Below the pieces are notes generated by a model, which did no database searches, had not been told where the DNA came from, and worked only from the letters and a program-made list of their open reading frames with translations. 5,348 bases of DNA from Candidatus Poribacteria bacterium (GTDB lineage: Bacteria; Poribacteria; DTPJ01; WJIO01): positions 1-5,348 of the forward strand of contig WJIO01000170.1 in assembly GCA_014730235.1 (NCBI GenBank), written 5' to 3'. Below are positions 1 to 5,348 of this stretch, piece after piece. Position 1 is the stretch's first letter. Each line of letters opens with the position of its first letter. The translations under genes were made by a program, and so were the position numbers.

Positions 1-535
1 ATATAATACTGCTGTCTTTATAACGGGAAACCAGGTCGCGGATCCAGTCGTTAAGCATTTTCCGGCTTAAGGAATAGGGGTTACGGACAAAATCCTCCAA
101 ACTTTCATGAGCTAAATCAACCCAGGCCCCGATATGCCAGGCTATAGTGGGGATAATCCTGATTGATCGTTCTGAGCAATCTTCCAGCATTATGTCAAAA
201 CGCTGCCAGAAAATTTTCCGGTTTTCTTCAGCAAGGTAGGTTTTTTCGATCTGGGCTGGCCAGAATTGACTGGCTCTTACCCTTATGGTATCAACTCCTA
301 AATCCTGAAGCATATCCAGAGAATTACGGGCTTCCGATAGGGAACTATCAAGATTACCACCCATCAGGTCTGCCACGTAGAAATCCAGGAGTTCATGTTT
401 ATTTACCCCGACAGATCGAAAAGGTTTTTCATTCATCAGTAGTTGATTTCCACGCCGATTCAGGAAATAATTATTATCCTCCTGAGAAAGTGCGCCATAA
501 AATAATAAACTTATTAGATATAAATGAATTAACAT
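1..535 (-). CDS. Secreted glycoside hydrolase, GH5/cellulase-like, N-terminal part (cut by window edge)
   Basis: The frame reads from ATG at 535 to the left edge without a stop, giving 178 residues and no C-terminus. GGAG at 545-548 lies 9 bases before the ATG. Residues 1-17 look like a signal peptide: a hydrophobic run ending in GALS, with cleavage likely before QED. The n-region has no Lys or Arg, which is weak but acceptable. The mature protein begins with the strand typical of GH5-like (beta/alpha)8 hydrolases (RRGNQLLMNEKPFRSVGVN, about residues 27-45). GVDTIRVR (80-87) follows, then IRIIPTIAWHIGAW (125-138), then an NPYSLSRKMLNDWIRDLVSRY-like helix (152-172) that in this superfamily precedes the strand carrying the acid/base Glu. 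Both catalytic glutamates would lie beyond the window. The likely role is hydrolysis of a beta-linked polysaccharide outside the cytoplasm; the substrate cannot be told. It is transcribed away from the 781-1167 gene. Confidence 0.8.
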   Translation of the reverse strand, partial: MLIHLYLISLLFYGALSQEDNNYFLNRRGNQLLMNEKPFRSVGVNKHELLDFYVADLMGGNLDSSLSEARNSLDMLQDLGVDTIRVRASQFWPAQIEKTYLAEENRKIFWQRFDIMLEDCSERSIRIIPTIAWHIGAWVDLAHESLEDFVRNPYSLSRKMLNDWIRDLVSRYKDSSII

Positions 536-780: not shown

Positions 781-1167
781 ATGAAAAGAAGGATTTTACT
801 TACTGGTCTTATTATCACTGGACTTCTTATAGTGTCAACAGCTATGGCTGGAGTTGCAGGCGATGAATGGACGGTCTCTATGTGGGACAGCGATGGAGAG
901 CTTTTGACAGATACCTGGTGCATTAATATGGCCAATGCCACTATTGGTAAAGTAGATTCTGATTCTTATGGTGAAGGTGGAGTAACATGCCGCACAAACT
1001 TTTTTGGTAAAAAAAGAATTCTGCTTAATTTCCCGGATGACTATACAATATTTAGCGGAATTTTCATTACCAATCATGGTGGTTCTGAAGTAATTTACGG
1101 TATGTTTGTAAATTATATTACAGGTTATCATGGAACTTTTGTAGCAGTTCCCGGAACTCCTGCCTGA
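781..1167 (+). CDS. Small secreted protein of unknown function
   Basis: The frame encodes 128 residues. An AGGGAGGG purine tract (769-776) ends 4 bases before the ATG and supports the start. Residues 1-23 form a textbook signal peptide: KRR, a hydrophobic core (5-18), then STAMA with predicted cleavage before GVAG. The mature chain of about 105 residues has only two cysteines (C47 and C70), which could pair, and is rich in Gly, aromatic and beta-branched residues, suggesting a small all-beta fold. It has no lipobox, no sortase signal and no second membrane segment. I do not recognise the family. The gene stands alone, with its own consensus promoter and the palindromic terminator just after the TGA stop. 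An exported structural, binding or inhibitor-like protein is possible, but no function can be assigned. The reading frame itself is convincing. Confidence 0.8.
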   Translation: MKRRILLTGLIITGLLIVSTAMAGVAGDEWTVSMWDSDGELLTDTWCINMANATIGKVDSDSYGEGGVTCRTNFFGKKRILLNFPDDYTIFSGIFITNHGGSEVIYGMFVNYITGYHGTFVAVPGTPA

Positions 1168-1241: not shown

Positions 1242-2051
1242 TTATATATTTTCTTTCAGCCATTTATAGCATTTAGTATAACCCAAAAAACCAGTATCTG
1301 CACCTTCGGGTCCTTCATATTCAGAACACCACACGCCGTCATATTCAGCATCTTTAAGGCATTTTACAGCATATTCCAGATCTATTTCACCATCTCCCAA
1401 AGCTGCACCTTTGTAATTACTCAGGCTTCCTGTTCCATCTTTCATATGTGTGTGGAAGGTATAAGGGGCTACTATTTCATAGTAATGGGCCAGTTCCTGC
1501 AAGGTATGTCCAGCCCATCGGTAATTCATAGTGTCCATATTTGCGCCGACCCAATCTGAGCCGACTTTTTCAAATAGCTCTACCTGTAGATCACCGTCAT
1601 TGGTGATATAACCATGATTATCCACAGCTAATTTAATATTATTCTTTTCAGCGGCATCAACGCATCGCACCAGACATCCGGCCATGGCATCAACCCACTT
1701 TTCCTCAGGAACCGAGTCTTTTGGACTTCCACCTTCTGTGCGAATTGCATATGCACCCAGAATATTACCTAAACCACAGATGCGATTCATACGCTCAACC
1801 TGGGCTTTTATCTTTTCTTCATCCAGTACCACAAAATCATTTCCTGCGGAAAGGGCAGAAACTTTGAGGCCAAAGGATTCTACTTCTTTCCTTACTTCTT
1901 CGGCTTTTGCTTCAGGATTATCAATTTCAGGAGTCCAGACATCAGAGATGGCCAGTTCCAGATATTCATAACCCGTATCTTTGGCATATTTAAGGTAATC
2001 TGTAAAGGACAATCCGGGGAAGTTATAGTGAATAACACCGATTTTTGCCAT
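1242..2051 (-). CDS. Alternative internal translation product: stand-alone sugar phosphate isomerase (269 aa)
   Basis: Within the 411-codon frame, ATG at 2051 is preceded by AAGGAG (2066-2061) with a 9-base spacer, one of the best ribosome binding sites in the window. The product starts exactly where this isomerase family normally starts, and its 269 residues are a normal length for a complete barrel. Either two neighbouring genes have been joined by loss of a stop codon, or the locus makes both products. The sequence cannot say which. The feature is listed separately because it changes how the gene should be annotated. Confidence 0.6.
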   Translation of the reverse strand: MAKIGVIHYNFPGLSFTDYLKYAKDTGYEYLELAISDVWTPEIDNPEAKAEEVRKEVESFGLKVSALSAGNDFVVLDEEKIKAQVERMNRICGLGNILGAYAIRTEGGSPKDSVPEEKWVDAMAGCLVRCVDAAEKNNIKLAVDNHGYITNDGDLQVELFEKVGSDWVGANMDTMNYRWAGHTLQELAHYYEIVAPYTFHTHMKDGTGSLSNYKGAALGDGEIDLEYAVKCLKDAEYDGVWCSEYEGPEGADTGFLGYTKCYKWLKENI

Positions 2052-2477
2052 TTTATTTTTCTCCTTTTTAATGTTGCTAAACAAATCATCCACTGTCTTT
2101 GCAGACTTAAATTTTGTCAGATTTGTTGTAACAAAAAGTATGCGTCTACCTTTCTTACCCTTAATTGATTCAGGTAAATGCTTAACCTCACCTGTATTAA
2201 CTTTATAATATTCCTTATCAGCGTCAGGATGGTCTTTTTCCAGCGGCAGTAACTGGGAACGCTTCAATCTGGATATACTTTTAATTTCAGCCCAATAATC
2301 AATTTTCCATTTCTCCTTGCCAAAGGCACTTGTCTGGTAAAATGCTATGTATCGGACATTTTTCAATTCAGCAGGGGCTTTATCAACAGGTATTCGATAC
2401 CAGTTTTGGGTATGAGCTATGTGCAGATCGCGCTTGTTATTTACTATAACTACAAGCACTAACTCATCTTTTTCCAA
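1242..2477 (-). CDS. Sugar phosphate isomerase/epimerase with fused N-terminal domain of unknown function
   Basis: The frame encodes 411 residues from a TTG at 2477, with GGAG 7 bases upstream. Residues 1-142 form a soluble alpha/beta domain with NWYRIPV (25-31), IAFYQTSAFGKEKW (44-57) and EYYKVNTGEVKHLP (89-102). I have a sense of having seen stand-alone bacterial proteins like this, but I cannot name a function. Residues 143-411 form a complete xylose-isomerase-like TIM barrel (AP endonuclease family 2 type), starting MAKIGVIHYNFPG as free enzymes do. Probable metal ligands, numbered from that Met, are D144 (in DNHG), D173 (in NMDTMNY), H202 (in HTHMKDG) and E244 (in CSEYEGP). D144 replaces the Glu more usual in this superfamily. 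The family isomerises or epimerises sugars or inositol derivatives; the substrate is not readable here. A strong internal start at 2051 means the isomerase may also be made alone. A weak GATAAT -10 (2518-2513) lacks a good -35. Confidence 0.85.
   Translation of the reverse strand: MEKDELVLVVIVNNKRDLHIAHTQNWYRIPVDKAPAELKNVRYIAFYQTSAFGKEKWKIDYWAEIKSISRLKRSQLLPLEKDHPDADKEYYKVNTGEVKHLPESIKGKKGRRILFVTTNLTKFKSAKTVDDLFSNIKKEKNKMAKIGVIHYNFPGLSFTDYLKYAKDTGYEYLELAISDVWTPEIDNPEAKAEEVRKEVESFGLKVSALSAGNDFVVLDEEKIKAQVERMNRICGLGNILGAYAIRTEGGSPKDSVPEEKWVDAMAGCLVRCVDAAEKNNIKLAVDNHGYITNDGDLQVELFEKVGSDWVGANMDTMNYRWAGHTLQELAHYYEIVAPYTFHTHMKDGTGSLSNYKGAALGDGEIDLEYAVKCLKDAEYDGVWCSEYEGPEGADTGFLGYTKCYKWLKENI
2061..2066 (-). 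promoter_or_regulatory. Internal ribosome binding site before the isomerase domain
   Basis: AAGGAG on the minus strand, 9 bases before the ATG at 2051 and in the middle of an open frame. It decides the likely start of the free isomerase. It also codes for the Lys-Glu-rich linker IKKEKNK between the two domains, so linker composition alone does not prove an evolved interdomain hinge. Confidence 0.65.
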
Positions 2478-2922
2478 TCTTTATCTCCGTATTTCACCAC
2501 CATCAGGGCAATATTATCATCCTGAATTTATTTTTTTTGGCTCTTCTGAATTGAGTGTGGAAATAATTTAAAACTTTCTAAGCATTTCATTCCTGCAAAA
2601 GCAGGAATGACAGCATAAAGAAGTTTCTTATTTTTAACAAACTAAACCCGGAAGAACCTTTTTTTAAGACCCATATCCGAAAACTTTTCAAATCCCCTAT
2701 TAGTGAATCCCTGATCTGTTCGACATTATCACCAATATCAGAAGGTATCATCCTAACCAAACGAGCAAATTCCATTGGTAAAACATGTTTGCATATCGAG
2801 TGTCTACGGTATGTCTGTATAAAAATCGGTTTAAAATATAGAGGGTGGTGGGTATGGGGTAATAACTTCCGACATACATACGGTTGGCTGATTGTAAAAT
2901 GGCGGCTATAATACTTCCAGGT
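2478..2922. other. Gene-poor region downstream of accA
   Basis: This 445-bp stretch holds no gene I can support. Its contents are the ribosome binding site of the fused isomerase gene (near 2485), a hairpin at 2587-2610, and two short minus-strand frames. One frame (2930-2748, 60 codons) overlaps the accA stop. The other (2775-2587, 62 codons) includes a polar stretch near its start (residues 9-28) that could be part of a decayed gene. Neither has a Shine-Dalgarno site or a recognisable product. No clear rho-independent terminator for accDA is visible close to the accA stop. Confidence 0.5.
2587..2610. repeat. REP-like short palindrome TCATTCCTGC-AAAA-GCAGGAATGA
   Basis: A perfect 10-bp stem (2587-2596 with 2601-2610) around an AAAA loop. 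The wording resembles the dispersed extragenic palindromes of the CATTCCTGC...GCAGGAATG type known in many bacteria. It has no U-tract on either side, so it is a poor intrinsic terminator, although it could stabilise or end the accDA transcript. Confidence 0.55.
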
Positions 2923-3891
2923 TTATTCATAATTTTCATCAATAAATTCGCCAATATTCCTGTATTTCTGGTATCTCTGTTCAACCAGATCATCAATTTC
3001 AAGCTTAACAAGGACATCAAGATTTTTCTTGACAGCTCTTCCCACTCTTTGTATTGCAGTTTCTATATCCCTATGAGCACCTTCCAGGGGTTCTTTAATT
3101 ATCTCGTCAACTATACCGAATTCATGTAATTCTTCTGCAGTCAATTTTAATGCTACAGCCGATTCAGGCGGGGTGATATGCGCTCTCCAGAGGATTTCGC
3201 TGCAAGTTTCAGGCAGACATACGCTGTATATTGCGTTTTCCAGCATCAATATTTTATCGGCAACACCGATTCCCAGAGCGCCGCCGCTTCCTCCTTCTCC
3301 AATAACAACGCAGATTATGGGAGTTTCGAGGGCTGACATTTCGGCCAGATTTTCGGCAATGGCAAAAGCTTGTCCCCGTTCTTCAGCATCAACACCTGGA
3401 TGGGCTCCCTGGGTATCCACAAATGTTATCACTGGTTTTTTGAATTTTTCTGCCAACTTCATAATACGAAGAGCTTTTCTATAACCCTCAGGATGCATCA
3501 AACCGAAGTTTCTTTCCAGACGCTCTTTTGTATCTTTTCCTTTTTCCTGACCCAGGAATACTACGTCATAGTTTCTGAATTTCCCTATCCCGGCTATAAG
3601 GGCGAGATCATCACCGTAAATGCGGTCTCCAAAAAGTTCAGTTTTATTCCTTATCAGTGAATTTATATAATCAGAAGCCCTTGGTCGCTGGACTTCCCGC
3701 TGCATTAAAACCTTATACCAGGGGGAAATATTGGAGTATAGAGCCCGTTTTTCCCTGTTAAGCTTTTTTTCCAGCAGTTCGATTTCCCGGGAGAAATCCG
3801 TTTGAAATGAAGATACAGTTTCTTTCAACTCTTCAATTTTACTTTCAAGTTCCATTATGGGTTTTTCAAAATCAAGTATATTTTTATCCAT
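2923..3891 (-). CDS. accA: Acetyl-CoA carboxylase carboxyltransferase subunit alpha
   Basis: The product is 322 residues, the family's usual length, and forms the carboxyltransferase with AccD; together they move the carboxyl group from carboxybiotin to acetyl-CoA, the committed step of fatty acid synthesis in the cytoplasm. Visible family landmarks are LDFEKPI near the N-terminus with a coiled-coil helix (about 13-50), RPRASDYI (69-76), GDRIYGDD (88-95), RNFGLMHPEGYRKALR (127-142), GAHPGVDAEERGQ (162-174), GEGGSGGAL (198-206) and EPLEGAHRD (267-275). I chose ATG 3891 over the in-frame GTG 3900 because AGGTG lies just upstream of the ATG and no site precedes the GTG, which directly abuts the accD stop. 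It lies 9 bp after accD and is surely co-transcribed and translationally coupled. Departures from common family wording include DTQGAHPG for DTPGAYPG and PETC for PEGC. Confidence 0.95.
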   Translation of the reverse strand: MDKNILDFEKPIMELESKIEELKETVSSFQTDFSREIELLEKKLNREKRALYSNISPWYKVLMQREVQRPRASDYINSLIRNKTELFGDRIYGDDLALIAGIGKFRNYDVVFLGQEKGKDTKERLERNFGLMHPEGYRKALRIMKLAEKFKKPVITFVDTQGAHPGVDAEERGQAFAIAENLAEMSALETPIICVVIGEGGSGGALGIGVADKILMLENAIYSVCLPETCSEILWRAHITPPESAVALKLTAEELHEFGIVDEIIKEPLEGAHRDIETAIQRVGRAVKKNLDVLVKLEIDDLVEQRYQKYRNIGEFIDENYE

Positions 3892-5090: not shown

Positions 5091-5348
5091 TTAAGCCAGT
5101 GTTATTTTTGATTTTACCATCTGCTCCTCAAACTCATCAGGGGGCATATATCTCAGGGATGAATGGAGACGTTTCTGGTTATACACGTCACCTATGAAAT
5201 GGGATATACGCTCACAGGCTTCATGCCTGTTGTCATACTCATACAAATATACTTCTTCCACTTTCACCGTCTTAATGAAGCTCTCAGCAAAGGGGTTGTC
5301 CTGGGGGCAACCTTTACGACTCATGCTGATGCTTATCTCATGGGATTC
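5091..5348 (-). CDS. IS3-family transposase OrfB, C-terminal part of the integrase core (cut by window edge)
   Basis: The frame is open from the right edge to TAA at 5091, 85 residues. Translation from the edge gives ESHEISIS then MSRKGCPQDNPFAESFIKTVK, the last block of the DDE integrase core of IS3 transposases. The Glu of AESF is the third catalytic acid and the Lys seven residues later is the conserved family Lys. The C-terminal segment YNQKRLHSSLRYMPPDEFEE is the classic end of this family. The apparent Met at 5324 is internal, not a start. The two catalytic aspartates and the upstream orfA would be beyond the window. OrfA-OrfB proteins, usually made by frameshifting, cut and join the element ends. 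Whether this copy is active cannot be told. Confidence 0.9.
   Translation of the reverse strand, partial: ESHEISISMSRKGCPQDNPFAESFIKTVKVEEVYLYEYDNRHEACERISHFIGDVYNQKRLHSSLRYMPPDEFEEQMVKSKITLA

Follow-up and report, generated by a model that had tools for sequence, protein, structure and literature searches.

The window, which is the complete 5348-bp contig analysed here and belongs to a draft genome of 5.53 Mb in 451 contigs, carries one open frame that joins a PUA-like domain to a sugar isomerase-like barrel. We interpret this frame as the in-frame fusion, peculiar to this lineage, of two genes that stand apart in all other genomes examined, with a surviving internal start and two products, a reading to which we assign a probability of about 60%. 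The original prediction had described a single frame of 411 codons in which the isomerase begins at residue 143, with AAGGAG nine bases before its Met. ORF analysis found exactly this arrangement (Table 1), and the only detail missing from that otherwise correct description is the TTG start codon of the fused frame.

Table 1. Features of the fused locus in the window, with positions on the contig.
Feature	Position	Strand	Description
Fused ORF: PUA-like domain and sugar isomerase-like barrel	1242..2477	-	411-codon uninterrupted open frame, TTG start
N-terminal PUA-superfold (EVE/YTH/ASCH-like) domain, predicted	2076..2477	-	residues 1-134; no Pfam, NCBIfam, PHROG or PADLOC model
Junction	2052..2075	-	residues 135-142, linker pLDDT <50; codons hold the isomerase ribosome-binding site
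AAGGAG, Shine-Dalgarno-like	2061..2066	-	9 bases 5′ of the isomerase ATG; also present before the unfused sister gene
Xylose isomerase-like TIM barrel (PF01261)	1242..2051	-	269 aa and stop, ATG at 2051
GGAG, Shine-Dalgarno-like	2485..2488	-	about 7 bases 5′ of the fused-frame TTG

Among the checks named in the original prediction were a separate search of the two halves and a comparison of gene arrangement in relatives, and both were run. Residues 143-411 match PF01261 in a Pfam profile search (E=1e-29), with 104.3 bits against a cut-off of 31.1 over profile positions 2-233 of 249, while residues 1-142 have no match in Pfam, NCBIfam or PHROGs. The closest NCBIfam models to the barrel are those for IolO and L-ribulose-5-phosphate 3-epimerase. 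None of the named isomerase equivalogs (IolO, L-ribulose-5-phosphate 3-epimerase, hydroxypyruvate isomerase) reaches its NCBIfam cut-off, the best scoring 33 bits against 300, and because all of these models lie so far below their cut-offs the substrate of the barrel is not assignable. Orthologues of the isomerase, 57-76% identical to the barrel, were found in 46 of 57 related genomes and are unfused in every case (46/46), with open frames of 265-332 codons compared with 412 in the window. The sister genome, from the same order, has an unfused isomerase gene that is 76% identical, begins with the corresponding Met and likewise has AAGGAG ahead of the ATG; this gene has an unrelated upstream neighbour, and the sister accA is on a different contig. 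Since the first residue of eight aligned orthologues, the sister included, exactly matches Met143, and since the sister keeps the AAGGAG, we regard the ATG at 2051 as the ancestral start of the isomerase.

The junction itself is short. Only about 8 codons separate the end of the domain from the isomerase ATG, so an open junction is not improbable once the upstream stop has been lost, and residues 135-142 are coded by the ribosome-binding region of the isomerase (AAGGAG-AAAAATAAA-ATG). Judged by what precedes the barrel, a conserved and independent domain of 134 codons, the join is not just a frame that happens to be long. One neighbouring frame is stop-dense across the junction (SG*FV*QH*KGEK*NG), and therefore a single small indel, real or artefactual, is enough to join or part the two genes. 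At the other end of the domain, the TTG start in the window aligns with the ATG starts of relatives (e.g. loci L123 and L140).

The orthologue starts, together with the AAGGAG common to the sister, suggest that the isomerase start at 2051 is probably still used. The original prediction had offered a fusion plus a free enzyme from one frame as one of its explanations, and we favour this outcome as probable in view of the 46 unfused orthologues, the position of the start and the AAGGAG: the locus would then yield both the 411-residue fusion and a free 269-residue isomerase. The RNA structure around the internal start is the same as that of shuffled sequences (z 0.34), and being no better than shuffles it is neutral as to initiation at 2051. 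An AlphaFold2 model of the whole protein consists of two modules connected by a low-confidence linker (residues 136-142) predicted to be disordered, with a weakly modelled second half of the barrel and a pTM of 0.61; given this linker and pTM, no fixed arrangement of the two domains is predicted. The isomerase start also holds one arm (2021-2037) of a 17-nt inverted repeat (16/17), whose second arm lies close to where the fused frame starts (2435-2451); the repeat may be a chance occurrence.

We then consider the N-terminal domain. Its 46 aligned relatives have no meaningful Pfam or NCBIfam family match, none of the 47 family members matches the Pfam EVE, YTH or ASCH profiles, and a profile of the 47 sequences retrieves nothing from PDB chain sequences up to E=1; a PADLOC search with the entire 411-residue protein likewise gave no match. 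The AlphaFold2 model of the domain (pLDDT 86, pTM 0.80) has PUA-superfold proteins as its structural neighbours, namely YTH, ASCH and EVE domains and the N-terminal domains of McrB and VcaM4I. For a PUA-type beta barrel the informative result is that EVE, YTH and ASCH structures occupy the top matches to the model, with best Foldseek E-values of 5e-4 to 1e-3. VIA-align against EVE (2p5d, 2hd9), YTH and ASCH structures gives Z 8-9 over 102-119 residues at 6-16% identity, and because such Z values are moderate we keep the claim to the level of the fold: the model places the domain in the PUA superfold, nearest to EVE/YTH/ASCH. EVE and YTH domains are binders of modified bases that occur with McrB and PD-(D/E)XK nucleases (PMC7641849); the main text of that paper names none of DUF559, UvdE and Chloroflexi. 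From its predicted fold, the domain in the window is likely a reader of nucleic acid or modified bases, and its relatives point to nucleic-acid recognition as well.

The domain family has its own signature (D17, WYR.P, A.Y, R73..L, Y90), and the homology of the window domain to its relatives stops at about residue 134. Within this stretch the window domain keeps 25 of the 28 columns that are ≥90% conserved among 60 homologues, which is within the range of intact relatives, and by this measure it is without sign of decay. A phage or plasmid origin was rejected, as no match was found among phages, plasmids and viral contigs.

The family is rare in the phylum of the window, where it was found in only 5 other genomes of 84, and the members with an intact frame (L002, L003, L005, L006) run on into a DUF559/MTES_1575-like nuclease half that begins directly where the window homology ends. 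The L004 copy (G056:C194), also of the domain-nuclease type, has an in-frame TGA inside the domain and has lost segments, and is probably a pseudogene. Relatives from Bacteroidota, Armatimonadota, Desulfococcaceae and Caldilineaceae are built in the same way, being 260-290 aa long with the domain followed by a DUF559/MTES_1575 nuclease; the identity between the window domain and nuclease-bearing members is about 39-47%. Proteins of this composition (L002, L003, L005, L006, L037-L041, L124) look, from their domain content, like a candidate family of modification-dependent (type IV-like) restriction enzymes. Of 400 genomes from the phylum to which the Caldilineaceae record belongs, 90 have the domain, as do 345 of 396 sampled genomes (87%) of the Chloroflexota class that contains this record. 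Among the loci read, many encode the domain as a protein of its own, about 150-200 aa long, and in others it is followed by a nuclease half, either intact or degenerate.

A second partner recurs in these loci. In 12 of the 61 distinct loci (L090, L104, L110, L116, L117, L123, L126, L129, L134, L139, L140, L141) the domain gene comes directly after a gene for the UV endonuclease UvdE in the same orientation, and at three of them (L129, L134, L139) UvdE and the domain share one open frame. The UvdE assignment was verified by PF03851 in L129, L134 and L123, with E down to 2.5e-46. The flanks scanned were 1.5 kb for most loci, so these neighbourhood counts are lower bounds.

The original prediction had further suggested that a shared product would tie the N-terminal domain to sugar metabolism. 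This is not supported: the domain has a predicted PUA-like fold, and its partners are DUF559-type nucleases and UvdE, and never an isomerase in the examined loci. No isomerase like that of the window lies beside any of the other domain loci examined (1.5-kb flanks for most), and no copy of the domain was found near the other isomerase loci; we therefore rejected the tie, as there is no second neighbourhood that combines domain and isomerase.

As to the origin of the fusion, what was observed is an open frame with two domains, each of which also exists independently in other genomes, a first domain whose conserved residues are intact, and an internal start that is conserved; the mutational event, the reader function of the domain and both products are inferred. 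The upstream ancestor would have been a small gene for a PUA-superfold domain, likely a nucleic-acid or modified-base reader, and the downstream ancestor a gene for a sugar isomerase/epimerase-like barrel with its own Shine-Dalgarno site. A small deletion, a frameshift or a single-base change where the upstream gene ended may have removed its stop, with any C-terminal tail, and left the ribosome-binding site of the isomerase in place. The resulting single mRNA would have two complete starts, the TTG at 2477 leading to the 411-residue fusion and the ATG at 2051 to the free isomerase; because the stop would be lost while the isomerase ribosome-binding site survived, two products from one mRNA are probable. 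The original prediction had also named a recent loss of a stop codon that joined two genes. The in-frame join is indeed limited to this lineage, but its recency does not follow, as the domain has the same third-position G+C (0.34) as its neighbours (0.33-0.35 for the isomerase, accA and accD).

The simplest account of the source gene would be that a gene for the domain alone lay directly ahead of the isomerase and lost its stop or a short tail. A tree of 55 domains places the one in the window (support 96/93) with L131, L098 and L137, which are stand-alone, nuclease-free proteins of 177-189 aa, although long branches make this placement less than certain. Another stand-alone protein of the family, L091, has its last residue at the equivalent of residue 132. 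The main alternative origin is the truncation of a nuclease-bearing gene, in which the nuclease half was deleted from a PUA-like/DUF559 protein and the remaining N-terminal fragment was fused to the isomerase. This would fit the many family members, including the four of the same phylum, that continue into a nuclease half, and it would fit the window genome, in which a search for a nuclease half elsewhere found none, so that we rejected such a copy. The window protein itself has no nuclease half after residue 135. We consider such a remnant unlikely: the nearest relatives in the tree are stand-alone with nuclease-free tails of about 45-55 aa (an argument weakened by the long branches), L091 stops at the same point without being part of a longer protein, and the domain in the window shows no decay.

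An error of assembly or base calling is an unlikely explanation. On this view the living genome keeps the two genes apart, and the frame is open only through a lost base or a chimeric join, which is conceivable for a contig of only 5348 bp in a draft of 451 contigs, for a junction crowded by stops in a neighbouring frame and for a fusion that occurs in no other genome examined. However, the junction is about 2 kb or more away from both contig ends, the last codons of the domain contain no long homopolymer, and the sequence across the junction occurs just once in the genome, which makes a repeat-driven chimera unlikely.

A selected bifunctional enzyme, in which the PUA-like domain recruits or regulates the isomerase by binding modified nucleic acid or RNA, or in which nucleic acid is the target of the barrel as it is of UvdE, is very improbable: both halves look intact, and family members in Chloroflexota adjoin or are fused in frame with UvdE, which is also a barrel of the xylose isomerase-like superfamily, but the barrel in the window shares 57-76% identity with sugar isomerase-like proteins that are not fused, and it has no match to a UvdE model; moreover, the domain precedes the barrel in the window but follows UvdE in Chloroflexota, and the arrangement is confined to one genome. 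The barrel as UvdE was rejected for want of a PF03851 match, and the whole genome has no UvdE. That the fusion is selected, with free and reader-tethered isomerase made on purpose, seems to us highly doubtful; if true, a metabolic enzyme would be coupled to a sensor of RNA or modified bases, drawn from an uncatalogued family of the PUA superfold that is found elsewhere with nucleases and a UV endonuclease.

The remainder of the contig holds several other features. At about 2535-2658 lies a dispersed long-palindrome element of about 123 bp, of which the genome has at least 40 copies, 82-93% identical and in both orientations; it is the only repeated part of the region 2040-3000 and folds as one hairpin (-44.2 kcal/mol, z -6.6). 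A-rich runs flank the element and could be a target-site duplication, and the element looks like a MITE. An open remnant of 22 residues, IQDDNIALMVVKYGDKDWKKMS (2462-2527, minus strand), extends across the start of the fused frame and almost reaches the palindrome; its likeness by eye to the end of a SpoIIE-type phosphatase is unproven, as the remnant and the stretch upstream have no Pfam match and no relative matches. Rfam matches at 1152-1255 are all below gathering scores, in a region that coincides with a terminator-like hairpin. Elsewhere on the contig, a glycoside hydrolase-like N-terminus (2-535, minus strand) is cut by the contig end and matches nothing significantly in Pfam. A small protein (781-1167, plus strand) is probably secreted and likewise lacks a Pfam match, and the opposite contig end carries the end of an integrase-core transposase (5091-5348, minus strand).

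Taken together, the fusion offers a small and testable case of gene merging in which the downstream start signal would have survived. The domain family, which has no model in the searched libraries, is worth more attention than the fusion itself: its reader-like predicted fold and recurrent link to DUF559-type nucleases or uvdE make the reading of modified or damaged DNA directly testable.

Compared with known systems, the domain is alike in predicted fold to the EVE/YTH/ASCH domains of the PUA superfamily, including the N-terminal domains of McrB (6n0s) and VcaM4I (6yex), and differs from them in having no sequence match to the Pfam models and a signature of its own. EVE/YTH-like domains are fused to PD-(D/E)XK-like nucleases (PMC7641849), as is part of the family of the window domain. 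Those DUF559/MTES_1575 PD-(D/E)XK-like nucleases that have this domain at the N-terminus share it with the window protein, which is without the nuclease half. With the PF01261 sugar-phosphate isomerase/epimerase-type proteins it has the whole barrel in common, to which the window adds an in-frame domain of 134 residues in front. In cheA, infB and mcrB, a second in-frame start gives a long and a short product. The window resembles these genes in that a single frame has two complete starts, each with a ribosome-binding site, and differs in that its long form joins unrelated genes and that its two products are predicted ones.
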